Positions 30,722 through 38,410 of a stretch of DNA of 64,000 nt are shown here, one piece after another. Made by a program: the position numbers and the translations under genes. Each line of letters opens with the position of its first letter. Position 1 is the first letter of the stretch. Where the stretch lies: assembly GCF_002844535.1 (NCBI RefSeq), contig NZ_PJNH01000001.1, positions 992,001-1,056,000 on the forward strand, in the 5' to 3' direction. The notes below the pieces were generated by a model. It did no database searches. It was not told the DNA's origin and saw nothing but the letters and a program-made list of their open reading frames with translations. Source of the DNA: Halalkalibacillus sediminis. Lineage in GTDB: Bacteria; Bacillota; Bacilli; Bacillales; Alkalibacillaceae.

Positions 30722-31257
30722 CTATCCTCCGAATGCAGCAATGAGAGATGTTTTCTCATCTGGTTTTTCATCCTCACCTAATAAATTAATTACGAAATAA
30801 TAGGGCATGTTCAAAACTTCATTAATGTCTTTGCCGTTTTTCATCCACTTTAGGATCCAGCGATCCATATCCTCTTTTTGTTGTTTGAAGGTGTAGATAT
30901 CACCTACTTCTTCGTCTCCAGATACTTTTTTGTATCATCGTCCTGGATGCCTCGAGCAGCAAAAATGATTTGTTCTTGTAACTTCCGAGTCGCGTCTGGA
31001 CCGTGTAGACCGTTAAACAATTCCTCTTTGGTGAATTGTTGGTCATATAAATCAACCACGAAGATTAAGAGGTTATCAATCAACTCTCGTTCTGATTTAG
31101 CGGTACCAGCTGAAGAGTTGATTTTCTCTAATGTATCAACAGCTTCGTAAACTTTTTTCATCGGAATAAAGAGTGGTGTTAAGTATTTTTCAGTGACAAG
31201 CTCACCTTGCTTCACATCTTTGACAAGCTCAATCATATTGCGTTTTAAATCTGCCAT
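30722..31257 (-). CDS. Tail assembly chaperone, long form by -1 frameshift (gpGT)
   Basis: The first 110 codons are those of the short form. A -1 shift on A-AAA-AAG (30925-30931) moves reading into a frame open for 67 more codons (VSGDEEVGDIYTFKQQ ... SLIAAFGG), which ends at TAG 30722-30724, 16 bases before the tape-measure start. The long form binds the tape measure and recruits tail tube subunits. This shift is conserved across tailed phages. Short and long forms occupy the region between major tail protein and tape measure. Confidence 0.85.
30904..31257 (-). CDS. Tail assembly chaperone, short form (gpG)
   Basis: 117 residues, soluble, helical (ADLKRNMIELVKDVKQGEL). I chose the ATG at 31257 because GAGGAGG lies 8 bases before it. 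It ends at TAG 30904, eight codons past the slippery site. Together with the long form it coats the tape measure during tail building and leaves before completion. Confidence 0.85.
   Translation of the reverse strand: MADLKRNMIELVKDVKQGELVTEKYLTPLFIPMKKVYEAVDTLEKINSSAGTAKSERELIDNLLIFVVDLYDQQFTKEELFNGLHGPDATRKLQEQIIFAARGIQDDDTKKYLETKK
30925..30931 (-). promoter_or_regulatory. Programmed -1 ribosomal frameshift site AAAAAAG
   Basis: Zero-frame codons are ACA AAA AAG, giving the heptamer A-AAA-AAG of the dnaX/IS type. The -1 frame is open both over the overlap and for 60 codons beyond the zero-frame stop. Confidence 0.85.
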
Positions 31258-31282
31258 TTCAAAATGCCTCCTCATATTAATA

Positions 31283-31306
31283 AAGAGTAGGGAATCCCCT
31301 ACTCTT
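31283..31306 (-). terminator. Hairpin over the end of the glycosyltransferase-like gene
   Basis: AAGAGTAGGG-gatt-CCCTACTCTT, with TATTAAT after it. The stop codon TAG of the gene at 31299 lies in the first arm. It may partly end transcription, which would leave head genes, major tail gene and glycosyltransferase gene in one strongly expressed segment. Confidence 0.6.
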
Positions 31307-32378
31307 CCACTTTTCTAATCATTGGGCGTCCAGCTTTGTTTTGGTCCGATAACAGTTCATCAATACGCTCTTGGCTGACTTTCTTGTTTACTGGCCGTGG
31401 CCATGGCTTATCCTTTTCATATTCTTTTTCGTCATCTAAATCACGCCAATTTTCATTTGACAAATACTTTGACTTTGCACTCTTTGCCATATTTTTAGTC
31501 TCCTTTATAGCTTTTACATATTCGTATGATGCTTTATTTTGGTCTACATGACTTAAATCATCTTCAAATGGTGTTCTACTTACATATTTACCTTTAAAAA
31601 ATAGTTTCTGATGATCATCCATCACCCCTGCATTATGAAAAATGTTCGTTTCATCATATTTTTCAACAGGATCCATCGGCCAACAGAATTCTAGCTCTTT
31701 CGGAGTCTCCACTTGTTTTCCGAAATGATAAACGTTCCACAGCTGCGCCCACATTTCTGCGGTCCATTTTTGGATGGGCACGTAATTGGAATCATTTTTT
31801 CGAACATATTCAGGTTCCACCGAAAGAAGGAATTGATAGAGTTTATTCGAATCTTCGTAAACCTTTTTCCAATATTGATATGTCGGGTGCTTAATGACCC
31901 ACTGGGCTCCCCCAATCGGATGTTGATCACGAATAAGGGATGGTTCAATGTTAATCACATCACACATACGGTCTAATAGATCTGTACCTTTACTATCAAT
32001 GTAATGCACACTAAGATAACTTTCACAATCGGATGCATACCAAGTATCTTTTTTCGGCTTAACCTTGGGCACATCTCGAAACAGTACATCGCTGTCTAAA
32101 TAAAAATAAGTTTTCTTTTCTCTCGTAGGGTCCTCTTCTAAATACTTCATCCAAAGGTATGGTTTCACGGATGGGATATAGCTCTTATCCATTCGCTCAT
32201 CTGCATAAACATGCGCTTCAACATCGTAATGCTCTTCTAAATAAACAGGCACCCGTTCATCCTGCTGCGTAAACAGCAGAATGATATCACGGATGCCTAA
32301 TTGATGTAGCCTGGTAATACAAACTTCAAGTTCCCACTCGAAACGTTTAATCGCTGGTTGGCATAGAATGTACTTCAT
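31299..32378 (-). CDS. Putative glycosyltransferase of GT-A type acting on virion proteins
   Basis: 359 residues. N-terminal strand-helix pattern (KYILCQPAI ... IRDIILLFT) fits a nucleotide-sugar fold. The DxD metal motif is YLDSDVLF (D95, D97). It is followed by GGAQWVIKHP (156-165), an aromatic acceptor-side patch KWTAEMWAQLW, and IFHNAG (246-251), whose His could be the third metal ligand as in GT8-like enzymes. The tail after residue 290 is charged. The gene starts 6 bases after the major tail stop without a clear ribosome-binding site, so it is coupled to it. Three virion proteins nearby end in poly-Thr. O-glycosylation of these tails is my inference; donor sugar unknown. Confidence 0.68.
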   Translation of the reverse strand: MKYILCQPAIKRFEWELEVCITRLHQLGIRDIILLFTQQDERVPVYLEEHYDVEAHVYADERMDKSYIPSVKPYLWMKYLEEDPTREKKTYFYLDSDVLFRDVPKVKPKKDTWYASDCESYLSVHYIDSKGTDLLDRMCDVINIEPSLIRDQHPIGGAQWVIKHPTYQYWKKVYEDSNKLYQFLLSVEPEYVRKNDSNYVPIQKWTAEMWAQLWNVYHFGKQVETPKELEFCWPMDPVEKYDETNIFHNAGVMDDHQKLFFKGKYVSRTPFEDDLSHVDQNKASYEYVKAIKETKNMAKSAKSKYLSNENWRDLDDEKEYEKDKPWPRPVNKKVSQERIDELLSDQNKAGRPMIRKVEE

Positions 32379-32384
32379 AAGCGA

Positions 32385-33059
32385 TTACGCGCTTGTGGTA
32401 GTCGTGGTTGTACTAGAAGTTGTGGTTGTTGTGTTCGGATAAGCTACACCGAATATTTTTTGGAATAGTTTATCACGATTGGCGCTTTCACCTGATTCAT
32501 CATAACCAAATACAACCGTCTTTTCTTTTTCAAATCCGTCAACTGGTCGTTCCATGAATTGTCCGGAAATCTCATCAGGGCTAAACTGAACACTTTCATT
32601 TTTCGTTTGAGCATTGATGTTCGGACGCATGAAAAGACCTTTTGTCAAACCAACCCACTCTTTAGAACCGTCCTCGTGTGTTTTCGCAAAGACACATGCT
32701 ACATATGGTGGATTGTCACCAGCTCCATAAGAGGATAAACCGTCCACGGTTTCAAGACCAAGCAACGTTTGTCTCACCTCTACTGGCAACTTGTGAAAGG
32801 CGCCACTGACACTCACATTGCCGTTGGCTACAGCGATCTCTGCCGTTTTGTCACTCCCGTAAGCTCTTACAGCTTCTTGAGGCATTTCTACTGTAATGGT
32901 TTGAACAAAGTCTACTAAATCCACATCACCTGTGATGATGCCTGCACCACTCTCGTCTAGAACCGCGTAATAAAGCTGATCCACACCCGTGGATGCTCTA
33001 TAATTTTTTTCTTCTGCAAAGTGCTGTAAATCTAGCTTTAGCAAATTACCTTGTTTCAT
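32385..33059 (-). CDS. Major tail (tube) protein with poly-Thr/Ser C-terminus
   Basis: 224 residues. N-terminus KLDLQHFAE and the phrase GVDQLYYAVLDESGAGI are typical of Firmicute siphovirus tail tube proteins (phi13/TP901 group). The last 16 residues are N-T5-S2-T6-S-A. This tail replaces the Ig-like domain many tail proteins carry at the same end. The same peptide ends the major capsid protein. I chose the ATG at 33059 after GAGGAAG. The gene lies between the tail-completion gene and the glycosyltransferase-like gene. Confidence 0.85.
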   Translation of the reverse strand: MKQGNLLKLDLQHFAEEKNYRASTGVDQLYYAVLDESGAGIITGDVDLVDFVQTITVEMPQEAVRAYGSDKTAEIAVANGNVSVSGAFHKLPVEVRQTLLGLETVDGLSSYGAGDNPPYVACVFAKTHEDGSKEWVGLTKGLFMRPNINAQTKNESVQFSPDEISGQFMERPVDGFEKEKTVVFGYDESGESANRDKLFQKIFGVAYPNTTTTTSSTTTTTTSA

Positions 33060-33074
33060 AATCTTCCTCCTCAT

Positions 33075-33446
33075 TTAAATTACATATTTCTTTCCGCGAT
33101 ACCGTCGAGCATCACGGAAAATTTTATAATCTCTATCGTACTCGTCTAATCCACCACCGCTATTCCCAAAATTCAATGTCCACATGATGGACTGGATGCG
33201 CTTGGAGACGACATCACGATCCGTTTTATTTTTGGACCAAACTTCTATTTGAAAAATAAAATCTTCCATCAACCATTGATTACTGGCGTAATCACTTGGC
33301 TTAGGAGGATCAAGAGGGTCAATGATGATGTGAGTATCTGTTAAACTACTAGTCTCTGGATACTCATAGAATTTGATTTGTCCTGCACACTTTTCATTGA
33401 TCAATTCATCAGCAATAAGTGCCTCATTGATTTCATCTAACATCAA
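33075..33446 (-). CDS. Tail terminator / DUF806-like phage protein
   Basis: 123 residues with the expected place between the HK97 gp10-like gene and the major tail gene. The middle (FIFQIEVWSKNKTDRDVVSKRI) is the alternating strand-helix of tail terminator proteins, which cap the tube where it joins the head. Start overlaps the upstream stop (ATGATG after GGGGGA). Assignment by position plus pattern. Confidence 0.65.
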   Translation of the reverse strand: MMLDEINEALIADELINEKCAGQIKFYEYPETSSLTDTHIIIDPLDPPKPSDYASNQWLMEDFIFQIEVWSKNKTDRDVVSKRIQSIMWTLNFGNSGGGLDEYDRDYKIFRDARRYRGKKYVI

Positions 33447-33835
33447 ATCCCCCTTTCCACCACTCGACGAATAGTATTGTGATAGGCTTTTTCTGAGTTT
33501 CGTAAAGCACGGGCAATCGCCCCTTTACCCGCTGGATTCGGGTTTTTCACTGTGCCGAATTCATTTAAGTGAATCACACGATACCGTTCATCCGGGCCTT
33601 TCCAATGAACCTTTATGGTCCTAGCCCCTTGCTCTGAATACGGCTTGGATAACGTAATCTCTCGAATGGAAGCTCCCGTATCACGAAACGATTGAAACTG
33701 TTGTTTTAACTCATGAACGAATACATCCGCTGCCTCTTCCAACGCTCGATCACTGATACGTTGCATTTCCTTTTCTCCAAAACGATTCTCCAAATCATTG
33801 AGAAGTCGATCCAACCCACTTACTTTTACACTCAT
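33443..33835 (-). CDS. HK97 gp10-like head-tail joining protein
   Basis: 130 residues. N-terminus VKVSGLDRLLNDLENRF and the later GPDERYRVIHLNEFGTVKNP are hallmark of the HK97 gp10 family, which acts at head-tail joining. Overlaps both neighbours by 4 bases, so it is translated in a chain. Confidence 0.85.
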   Translation of the reverse strand: MSVKVSGLDRLLNDLENRFGEKEMQRISDRALEEAADVFVHELKQQFQSFRDTGASIREITLSKPYSEQGARTIKVHWKGPDERYRVIHLNEFGTVKNPNPAGKGAIARALRNSEKAYHNTIRRVVERGI

Positions 33836-34203
33836 GATCTCAACTCCGCAATCACGTTAATAAAGTCCTTATGCTGCATATCTGGTTGAGCTTGTTTCAC
33901 ATTAAAAAGTTGCCCCTTATACTCGGGGGCATCAATCTCAACGTAATGCTTATTCGATGGAATAAAGTCAGCTAATGGATCTCGGATGATCACGGTCACG
34001 TCTGAAAGGGTACCATTGGATTTAGCCAATTCGACATCTCGTAACCATACCTCATCAATTTCGGCCCAGGCTTCATATATAGGGTCCTGCTGAATATTAC
34101 TCCCTGGCAACGGCCCTTCATTTGGTTCAGCTTCGTAAAACTTCACAGGTGTTCTTAGCTCACCTGAATGGACACGAGGCGGTTTATATTCAAACTTTCT
34201 CAT
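33832..34203 (-). CDS. Phage head closure protein
   Basis: 123 residues. HSGELRTPVKFYEAE near the start and VWLRDVELAKSNGTLSDVTVIIRD match the SPP1 gp16-like head closure family. I chose the ATG at 34203, not the GTG at 34212, because GGAGGT lies 7 bases upstream. That site is made by the Gly codons at the end of the preceding gene. Confidence 0.82.
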   Translation of the reverse strand: MRKFEYKPPRVHSGELRTPVKFYEAEPNEGPLPGSNIQQDPIYEAWAEIDEVWLRDVELAKSNGTLSDVTVIIRDPLADFIPSNKHYVEIDAPEYKGQLFNVKQAQPDMQHKDFINVIAELRS

Positions 34204-34204
34204 C

Positions 34205-34525
34205 CTATCCACCTCCAGATGTCGTGGTGGTTGTAGTTGTAGTCTCCGGAATCAAAGCAATGCCCAGGCTCGTCAAATCGCTCAAGAAGTTATCCTCAAA
34301 AAATTCAACAGCATCGTTATACGCATAGCGAGATCTCTCAAACACTAATTCGGTGGCTAGCTTATCGGTTTCTTTTTCACCGTCAATCGTAAAATCACCA
34401 CAACGGTTTTTAATGACAGCAACAGAAAAGGATAACAACCGTTTGAGATTGTTATCCTCGACACTGTGTGAAATGTGCATGCGACTTTTGAATTGGCTTA
34501 ATACACTATCCGTGATTTCTTCCAA
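34205..34525 (-). CDS. Head-tail connector protein (gp6-like) with poly-Thr tail
   Basis: 106 residues, small helical adaptor of the HK97 gp6 / SPP1 gp15 type, built as a ring under the portal (QFKSRMHISHSVEDNNLKRLL). It ends in P-E-T8-S-G3. It is the third virion protein in this operon with a poly-Thr end. The TAG lies two bases before the ATG of the next gene. Confidence 0.8.
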   Translation of the reverse strand: MEEITDSVLSQFKSRMHISHSVEDNNLKRLLSFSVAVIKNRCGDFTIDGEKETDKLATELVFERSRYAYNDAVEFFEDNFLSDLTSLGIALIPETTTTTTTTSGGG

Positions 34526-34538
34526 TCACATCACCTCA

Positions 34539-35711
34539 TTACGCGCTTGTAGTGGTTGTCGTAGTGCTAGAAGTCGTTGTTGTCGTAGTAGCACCATGAA
34601 TGTTCAAATCATACACTTGAGCTGAGTATTTATCTTTTGGTTTACCAGTAGCAAATTGCTTTTGGATATACAACGTTGCATCATCCAACGCCATCGTCTG
34701 ATCGAACTTTTTAATAGGTTCTGAGCCACCCGTAGCTGCAATGTACTCACCCTCGACGAAAAAGAGAACTTTTCCTTCTGGAACGAAGATAGATTCTTCA
34801 TGATCAGGGTTAAATGGTAGATTCGTCACATAAGCGCCATTTGCATTTTGAACAGTCGCATTGGCTTGGATATCAATCGTGTTAAACGGATTAGTAACCA
34901 TTACAACTTTACCCGCAACTTTTTTAGGTTCGTCAGCGTCAGACCCATCGCCATTCACTTTCTTAGCAAGAAGTTTGACCACATCACGCATCTCATTAAT
35001 CAATGTGCGACCTGGTTCAAAAGTTAATGTTCCTGCAGATTGCTTCTGTGCTACTGCTCCATCTTGTTGTTTAACATACAACAAACCAATAGGCATGTTG
35101 TTTCCATTACCTGTTACAAAACCTTTTTCCAGTCCAACAGCCATTGCTTCTTTGATCATTGTACGAACATAACGTTCTACCCAAACCGGACCAAGTTTTA
35201 ACATGTCGTTTGCTAGTGGAATGAAGGCTGTAAGCTTTAACTGAGTAAGGGTTTCCTTGCGAAACGCTGCATTAAGTTGCCCCTTAATTTTGTCAAATAG
35301 CGGTCCCCATACGGCTGCACCTTCTGGATCAGAATAAATGAACTCAGTAACTGCACCATAGTTTTCTAGACCAAGCTTATCTAACAGGGGATGCTCTTTT
35401 CGAAGCTCCTCAAACACACGCTCCTGGGTTGTCTTAGGAAGTGTTTCAGTTTCTTTGAAATCTCCATCTTCAACCACAGCATTAAAAAATTGCATTTCCT
35501 CACTCGTAAGCACGTTTTGACCACGAGACTGGATAATCGCGTTATCAGCTGATTGAGTGTGTACTTGGTTCAAGATATCACCCTGAACATCATTAGCAAG
35601 TGCTTCAAGCATTTCATTTAACGCTTCTGATTGTTCCTTTTCCGTACCTTCCTGTGTTGCTTTTGCAAACGCCTGTTTCTTTTTTTCGAAATTATTAAAT
35701 TTAATCGGCAT
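34539..35711 (-). CDS. Major capsid protein, HK97 fold, with poly-Thr/Ser C-terminus
   Basis: 390 residues. N-terminal helical delta-like region (about 1-75, rich in Lys, Gln, Glu) is followed by the HK97 core: GAVTEFIYSDPEGAAVWGPL, then VERYVRTMIKEAMAVGLEKGF with FVTGNGNNMPIGLL. The last 16 residues are T6-S2-T6-S-A. HK97 capsid proteins have their C-terminus at the outer capsid face in several phages, so the tail may be exposed. The protease gene lies 27 bases upstream. Confidence 0.92.
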   Translation of the reverse strand: MPIKFNNFEKKKQAFAKATQEGTEKEQSEALNEMLEALANDVQGDILNQVHTQSADNAIIQSRGQNVLTSEEMQFFNAVVEDGDFKETETLPKTTQERVFEELRKEHPLLDKLGLENYGAVTEFIYSDPEGAAVWGPLFDKIKGQLNAAFRKETLTQLKLTAFIPLANDMLKLGPVWVERYVRTMIKEAMAVGLEKGFVTGNGNNMPIGLLYVKQQDGAVAQKQSAGTLTFEPGRTLINEMRDVVKLLAKKVNGDGSDADEPKKVAGKVVMVTNPFNTIDIQANATVQNANGAYVTNLPFNPDHEESIFVPEGKVLFFVEGEYIAATGGSEPIKKFDQTMALDDATLYIQKQFATGKPKDKYSAQVYDLNIHGATTTTTTSSTTTTTTSA

Positions 35712-37639: not shown

Positions 37640-38410
37640 TCACCCCCTTACAATATCAATCGATGGCAGCTCCATTTTTGATCTATTTTCATTTATTCTA
37701 TTTAACCCTTGCTCACAATACTCTCGATTTAATTCAAAGCCTATCCAATTGCGGTTCGAATTATCACAAGCGATAGCAGTTGTAAAACCGCCCATGCAAT
37801 TATCTAGTACAGTCTCACCCTCATTGGTATAAGTCCGAACAATGTACTCAAATAATTCTTCAGGCTTTTGAGTAGGGTGGAAAGTGTTTTTGTTTCTTGA
37901 AAACGATACGACGGATTTGGGAAAGTTCTTATATCTCACAACATGGTATCTACTCAAGGACTGATTGTTCTTTCCTAAAGCTTGCATACTCTTATTTCTT
38001 TTAACTGTTTTTGGTTTAATTTTCATTAATCCTTGTGGATTATATGTCGGTAGCTTCTTATAAAACACGCATATATTTTCATGATTCTTTAATGGCATTC
38101 GATTGGCATTTTGAAATCCTGTGACGTGGTTTTCTTTCTTCCAAATCCACTCGTAGCGAAACCATTTGAAATTCGACTCAATGAGCTTGGTTGTAAAGGG
38201 CTGACTGGCTGTAAGAACAATAGCTCCATTCTCTTTAATGATTCTTTTATACTGCTCCCACAACTCTTGAAAAGGAATAATGCTATCCCAAGAACAATGG
38301 GTGGTACCGTAAGGAAGATCGCACAATATTAGATCAATACTTCCATCTGGAATATGCTTCATACCCTCCAAACAGTCCATGTTATATACGGTATTCTTAT
38401 TAATCTTCAT
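37640..38410 (-). CDS. DNA N4/N6 methyltransferase (beta-class)
   Basis: 256 residues. Catalytic motif IV is DLPYGTTHC (DPPY variant) near residue 31 and the SAM motif I comes after it: TVLDNCMGGFTTAIACD near 208, the order of beta-class DNA methyltransferases. The protein lacks a nuclease partner, so it probably protects phage DNA from host restriction. Its place between terminase and portal is common in Firmicute phages. Confidence 0.87.
   Translation of the reverse strand: MKINKNTVYNMDCLEGMKHIPDGSIDLILCDLPYGTTHCSWDSIIPFQELWEQYKRIIKENGAIVLTASQPFTTKLIESNFKWFRYEWIWKKENHVTGFQNANRMPLKNHENICVFYKKLPTYNPQGLMKIKPKTVKRNKSMQALGKNNQSLSRYHVVRYKNFPKSVVSFSRNKNTFHPTQKPEELFEYIVRTYTNEGETVLDNCMGGFTTAIACDNSNRNWIGFELNREYCEQGLNRINENRSKMELPSIDIVRG

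Follow-up and report, generated by a model that had tools for sequence, protein, structure and literature searches.

A glycosyltransferase family and portable poly-threonine tails as a probable virion glycosylation system of Bacillota phages

The DNA considered here (the window) is a stretch of 64,000 nucleotides of the Halalkalibacillus sediminis genome (assembly GCF_002844535.1, contig NZ_PJNH01000001.1, positions 992,001 to 1,056,000), and carries a prophage in which three virion proteins, namely the major capsid protein (MCP), the major tail (tube) protein (MTP) and a connector-type head-tail protein, end in runs of threonine and serine. Directly behind the MTP gene, and before that of the tail assembly chaperone, lies a further gene on the minus strand (31299-32378), whose product of 359 residues resembles a glycosyltransferase. 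The original prediction had been that enzyme and tails belong together as a system for the O-glycosylation of the virion, with the tails serving as acceptor tags. The features on which the argument is built are the following:

34539-35711, minus strand: MCP of the HK97 fold, acceptor candidate (PF05065, phrog_10)
34542-34589, minus strand: poly-Thr/Ser tail of the MCP (TTTTTTSSTTTTTTSA)
34205-34525, minus strand: connector-type head-tail protein, acceptor candidate (phrog_749; PF05135 below the cut-off)
34208-34243, minus strand: poly-Thr tail of the connector-type protein (TTTTTTTTSGGG)
32385-33074, minus strand: MTP, acceptor candidate (TIGR01603/phrog_88)
32388-32432, minus strand: poly-Thr/Ser tail of the MTP (TTTTTSSTTTTTTSA)
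31494-32378, minus strand: predicted GT-A glycosyltransferase domain, residues 1-295 (phrog_4417), with D95/D97, HNAG at 248-251 and K262, assigned by profile, alignment, model and fold search

The genes of the module follow one another in the order capsid protease, tailed capsid protein, tailed connector-type protein, three neck/terminator genes, tailed MTP, candidate gene, tail chaperone and tape measure. The translations confirmed that the MCP, the MTP and the connector-type protein end in TTTTTTSSTTTTTTSA, TTTTTSSTTTTTTSA and TTTTTTTTSGGG, exactly as had been described. Five ACN codons in succession (ACNx5) were matched 11 times in the window, every time at the 3′ end of one of these three genes, where 0.06 matches were expected from shuffled sequences. 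Six in succession (ACNx6) gave 6 matches across the 2.86 Mb genome, all of them in the same three tails; the reversed control pattern also gave 6 matches across the genome. The threonine codons of the tails are a mixture of ACA, ACC, ACT and ACG, and the run is thus maintained by selection on the protein and is no DNA microsatellite. An origin of the tails by chance or as a microsatellite is ruled out by these counts together with the mixed codons.

The motifs that had been pointed out in the 359-residue protein are all present (DSD at 95-97, GGAQW at 156-160 and HNAG at 248-251), and its assignment as a GT-A glycosyltransferase stood for residues 1-295 but not for residues ~297-359, which are a small protein in its own right (phrog_3673), joined in frame to the enzyme. 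Residues 1-295 match PHROG 4417 over its full length (292 of 293 profile positions, E 5.7e-116). This family, also named “prophage pi2 protein 34”, is listed with unknown function in PHROGs, and a functional assignment is likewise absent from Pfam and NCBIfam. The window protein itself had no significant match in Pfam or NCBIfam, PF01501 (Glyco_transf_8) included, and sequence searches of the PDB, with the protein and then with the profile, returned nothing useful. In an alignment of 35 diverse family members, D95, D97, H248, N249, A250, G251 and K262 are among the residues that are invariant (35/35); the DxD is found as YLDSD after a hydrophobic strand, and even remote members (E about 1e-45) have kept the DxD, the HNAG and the lysine.

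The same alignment was the source of an AlphaFold2 model (mean pLDDT 92.6, pTM 0.86), which was compared with the PDB using Foldseek. At E<=1e-3, 259 structures were retrieved, the best with an E of 8e-8, and the top matches listed were nearly all nucleotide-sugar glycosyltransferases (WbbM, UGGT, GTA/GTB, LgtC). Alignment by VIA-align gave a Z of 15.7 for glycogenin (rmsd 3.5 over 224 residues), 15.2 for LgtC, 14.4 for GlyE and 14.1 for LARGE1. In a viral structure library the family itself came first (an uncultured phage and LP65 Orf49), followed by viral glycosyltransferases. The GT-A fold, the absence of which had been named beforehand as grounds for abandoning the prediction, is therefore present in the model, and from the PDB and viral matches residues 1-295 are, as modelled, a GT-A enzyme of GT8-like architecture.

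The link between this enzyme and the tails comes from their near-perfect co-occurrence. The gene was found at 108 loci from viral contigs and genomes (some phages being represented in both sets), and all 108 encode at least one T/S-tailed open reading frame (ORF) on the same strand, with two or three such ORFs at 87 of them. Under the same tail rule only 1/87, 2/26 and 1/119 loci scored in the gene-negative sets, and the single positive of the first of these is an inner threonine run and has no C-terminal tail. The comparison was then confined to homologous proteins, using 124 loci that encode a TIGR01603-type MTP: the MTP was tailed at 12/12 loci with the gene and at 0/112 without it. A subset of 91 of these loci, collected with tails ignored from 397 genomes sampled at order level and one genome sampled at family level, gave 4/4 against 0/87, with a Fisher p of about 4e-7 that is nominal, the loci being related. 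For this reason a tree was made of 138 major tail proteins from which the tail columns had been removed. The gene changed at least 19 times on this tree and the tail at least 18 times; in 8 pairs, independent of one another and well supported, of which one member has the gene and the other lacks it, the tail differed in the same direction in 6.3 on average and in the opposite direction in none (median sign-test p 0.03). Of the apparent misses, L034, L050 and L252 encode an untailed MTP, yet have another tailed ORF at the locus, and in L076 a tail (TTTTTTEEETTTTTTGV) is present that was overlooked by the threshold. Tailed proteins are thus not equally frequent in the absence of the gene, as they should have been had the prediction been wrong. 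A scan in the reverse direction, from tag to enzyme, found the family encoded in the fetched stretch at 5/120 viral ACNx7 loci and at 0/119 GCNx7 loci, and 2 more ACNx7 loci have it elsewhere in the record (16 records were searched whole); this result (7/120 vs 0/119) is only moderately strong, because most ACNx7 matches are inner repeats of unrelated proteins.

The tails are carried by proteins of several unrelated families: capsid proteins of phrog_10, 840, 29 and 3270, tail-tube proteins of phrog_88, 238 and 6686, connectors of phrog_749 and Ig-like proteins of phrog_341/14018. Phage phiFL1A has them on the capsid and tail proteins, iLp84 on the capsid, tail and Ig-like proteins, phage 1706 on orf10 (annotated capsid/protease) and orf13 (annotated major structural protein), bIL285 on orf50, and VPE25, PMBT8 and vB-SscS-F1 on the major tail protein. 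In Lactococcus lactis phage 1706 and the bIL285 prophage of strain IL1403 the tails read T9HHD or T9RHD, and the transferase is encoded by orf14/orf45. In the Herelleviridae phage LP65, whose enzyme is 26% identical to that of the window, the two genes just 5′ of the enzyme terminate in TTTETQTQTQ-type repeats, and one of the two products is annotated “structural protein 2-D,MS” (2-D gel and mass spectrometry (MS)); in SAC12B (32% identity) the Ig-domain protein immediately 5′ terminates in PTTVAPTTVKP repeats. To judge from these sequences, the enzyme and its Thr-rich tail seem to diverge together. This breadth of carriers strengthens the proposal that the tails are portable tags. Because tails are found in no fewer than four PHROG families of capsid proteins and three of tail-tube proteins, they do not hitch-hike with a single module, a candidate explanation that was rejected on the strength of the unrelated acceptor families and the MTP tree. 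In vB-SscS-F1, the small protein that precedes the transferase is tailed besides the MTP, and four TTTTTT(T) runs lie close to the C-terminus of the assembly protease (L561:13047-14162). Lactococcus phage 1706 encodes a putative holin, orf3 (L517:964-1368), which likewise terminates in EVTTTTTTTVKEPE, and the tag may there extend beyond virion proteins.

A glycosyltransferase might have another acceptor altogether, such as teichoic acid or a polysaccharide (for superinfection exclusion) or the phage DNA, while the threonine tails travel with the structural cassette in some other role. It is well established that some phage glycosyltransferases modify DNA or the surface glycans of the host (cited in PMC12619734), and the gene does lie among the late structural genes of temperate phages. 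Such a late structural position is, however, ill-suited to conversion, and VPE25, 1706 and Sextaecvirus, for which a lytic life cycle is the usual description, have the gene as well, although such phages could gain nothing from lysogenic conversion. Moreover, the same enzyme accompanies all of the tailed capsid and tail-tube families, and the appearance and disappearance of the tail with the gene on homologous MTPs is not predicted by cassette hitch-hiking. This explanation is accordingly considered improbable.

Several observations weigh against the tails being acceptors of this enzyme. A connector with a T10 tail (L208:4489-4806) is encoded in a 39 kb contig that lacks the gene and in which the MTP is untailed; it is perhaps a remnant after loss of the gene. 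In two lineages (L206/G016 and L235) the transferase is frameshifted and the tails are intact, the G016 copy being L514 (G016:C11:27283-28164) and G016 sharing its MTP end with L206. The frameshifts in L206, L514 and L235 may mark pseudogenes, i.e., natural knock-outs, or may be errors of sequencing. The gene is also present in Chryseobacterium phage MA9V-3, with no evident poly-Thr-tailed neighbour in the 41 kb that were read. Some contigs that lack the transferase family, crAss-like ones among them, likewise encode poly-Thr tails, with up to 17 threonines at protein ends in L087 (crAss-like), L128 and L139, so that the tag may work with another enzyme or have another purpose; no Pfam glycosyltransferase was found among 51 ORFs adjoining such tails, a weak negative as the contigs are short. 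Neither biochemical nor mass data came to light for any of the family members, and a literature search on poly-Thr phage tails found nothing relevant.

The T10 tail of L208, the tails that persist beside frameshifted genes and those in family-less contigs would all suit the idea that the tails are unmodified low-complexity ends, acting as spacers, adhesives or solubilising segments, next to an enzyme that is inactive or unrelated. This would leave unexplained why the catalytic motifs are invariant, why none of the 112 gene-less MTP loci is tailed, and why the tails next to diverged enzymes have diverged yet remain Thr-rich, and it is regarded as very improbable indeed.

The explanation that best accounts for the data, and one that is very likely correct, is that the gene product is a GT-A glycosyltransferase, specific to phages, which puts sugar on the Thr/Ser tails of virion surface proteins, the tails being portable acceptor tags; the earlier interpretation of tails and transferase as a virion glycosylation tag system is in this respect supported. 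With late expression, the enzyme would be made beside its substrates. The donor would be a nucleotide sugar from the host cell, presumably a UDP-sugar, dealt with in the manner of GT8-type enzymes, and transfer would take place to the hydroxyls of threonine and serine in the flexible C-terminal tails, before or after assembly, which implies a linkage through the Thr/Ser oxygen. The presumed acceptors would be the most abundant proteins of the virion surface, i.e., capsid, tail tube and connector, and in other phages Ig-like decoration proteins, with a sugar coat over head and tail tube as the outcome. Portable tags would let one enzyme coat a particle made of unrelated structural proteins. Whether the coat alters adsorption, stability or recognition is a matter of speculation.

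The remainder of the gene and its surroundings suggest how the transferase came to its present position in the tail module. Three further features are relevant here:

31299-31490, minus strand: 63-residue C-terminal extension (phrog_3673), with an in-frame ATG at 31490 and an AAGGAG Shine-Dalgarno sequence at 31505-31500
30904-31275, minus strand: tail assembly chaperone (PF23857), the nearest downstream gene, which marks the insertion point
31283-31306, no strand assigned: perfect 10-bp hairpin (AAGAGTAGGG/CCCTACTCTT) across the stop codon of the fused gene, from a pattern match only

In relatives that lack the transferase (e.g., L209, L222, L424 and L436), the phrog_3673 protein is encoded by a stand-alone gene immediately after the MTP gene, and the fusion is restricted to the lineage of the window. 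From this gene order it appears that the transferase was inserted precisely between the MTP gene and the small phrog_3673 gene of 60 codons and fused in frame to the latter, so that its insertion point is well defined. The AAGGAG ribosome site lies nine bases 5′ of the in-frame ATG at 31490, and most of the fused-form relatives that were read have a start codon (ATG, GTG or TTG) at the fusion point, usually preceded by a GAG-rich stretch resembling a ribosome site. Two products are therefore probable, the fusion protein and, on its own, a tail-module protein of 63 residues. The name “Arc-like repressor” for the phrog_3673 part, inherited from PHROGs, was rejected, since the stand-alone position behind the MTP argues for a protein of the tail module. 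The hairpin is a possible terminator or attenuator; lying ahead of the chaperone gene, it could limit readthrough from the tail gene, which is strongly expressed. Elsewhere in the prophage, a DNA methyltransferase-like gene (37640-38410, minus strand), assigned from reading its translation only, lies in the packaging module with the portal gene on one side and the terminase genes on the other, which is an unusual location.

Taken beyond the window, the data probably describe a system of virion glycosylation that had not been named before and is widespread among the phages of Bacillota, with distant relatives in other groups. It would consist of one dedicated transferase family and a portable C-terminal poly-Thr/Ser tag; this tag would have been joined, time and again, to capsid, tail-tube, connector and decoration proteins that are unrelated to one another, and would have been gained and lost with the enzyme. 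Glycosylation of the virion has so far been shown in few phages, chiefly mycobacterial ones, and a second, unrelated route is thus indicated in phages of lactic acid bacteria, enterococci, staphylococci, bacilli and clostridia. Since one gene encodes the enzyme and the acceptor shows up as a tag, sequence data suffice to recognise the system. A function is thereby proposed for a family annotated as unknown (PHROG 4417), and the carriers include the well-studied phages bIL285, 1706, VPE25, phiFL1A, PLE3 and LP65. The loci that differ in the gene offer natural with/without pairs for asking what purpose sugar serves on a phage particle.

That phage virions can be glycosylated was already known; what is new is the enzyme family and the visible, portable tag. 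In the mycobacteriophages, phage-encoded glycosyltransferases O-glycosylate capsid and tail-tube subunits at their C-termini (Freeman et al. 2023, Cell Host Microbe, as cited in PMC12619734 and PMC10877033). The likeness extends to a phage-encoded transferase and, by co-occurrence in the genomes, to the capsid and tail tube as candidate acceptors and to their C-termini. The differences are equally clear. The MCP of mycobacteriophage Che8 ends in NKTGS and its MTP in QYSDGS, neither with a poly-Thr tail; its three transferases, gp108-110, are encoded by adjacent genes distant from the structural genes, and profile alignments with the window family (P 0.14-0.78) gave no homology; and the hosts are Actinomycetota, whereas the window family is mainly found in Bacillota. 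The three consecutive genes of Che8 also bear on a refinement of the tag reading, in which the tails do accept sugar, most of it added by transferases of the host or by others of the phage, and the present enzyme primes, or extends by one step, a longer glycan. A second annotated sugar transferase lies elsewhere in SAC12B, and likewise in LP65, which would agree with such a division of labour; a non-exhaustive search found no second transferase near the structural genes of the window prophage and most small siphophages, and the refinement is entertained as a possibility on the unlikely side.

Returning to the single predicted enzyme, its nearest solved folds are those of GT8-type enzymes (glycogenin, LgtC, GlyE and LARGE1; VIA Z 14-16 over 217-231 residues), with which it shares a DxD followed, in the same order, by a late conserved His/Lys motif. 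Where GT8 enzymes have a late HxxGxxKPW-type motif, whose histidine is the third metal ligand, the family has an invariant H248-N-A-G ... F-F-K262, a correspondence in sequence order only. The differences here are an identity of about 10% and the lack of a PF01501 match, and in a profile alignment with 13 GT8 proteins the DxD stretch alone was aligned (P 0.024), which does not place the family within GT8 by sequence. As to the acceptor, clustered Thr/Ser repeats accept many sugars in mucin-type proteins and in Ser/Thr-rich glycosylated adhesins, and GlyE itself acts on a serine-rich adhesin of pneumococcus. In contrast to these, the repeat in the window is a short C-terminal tag placed on assembled virion subunits of unrelated folds.

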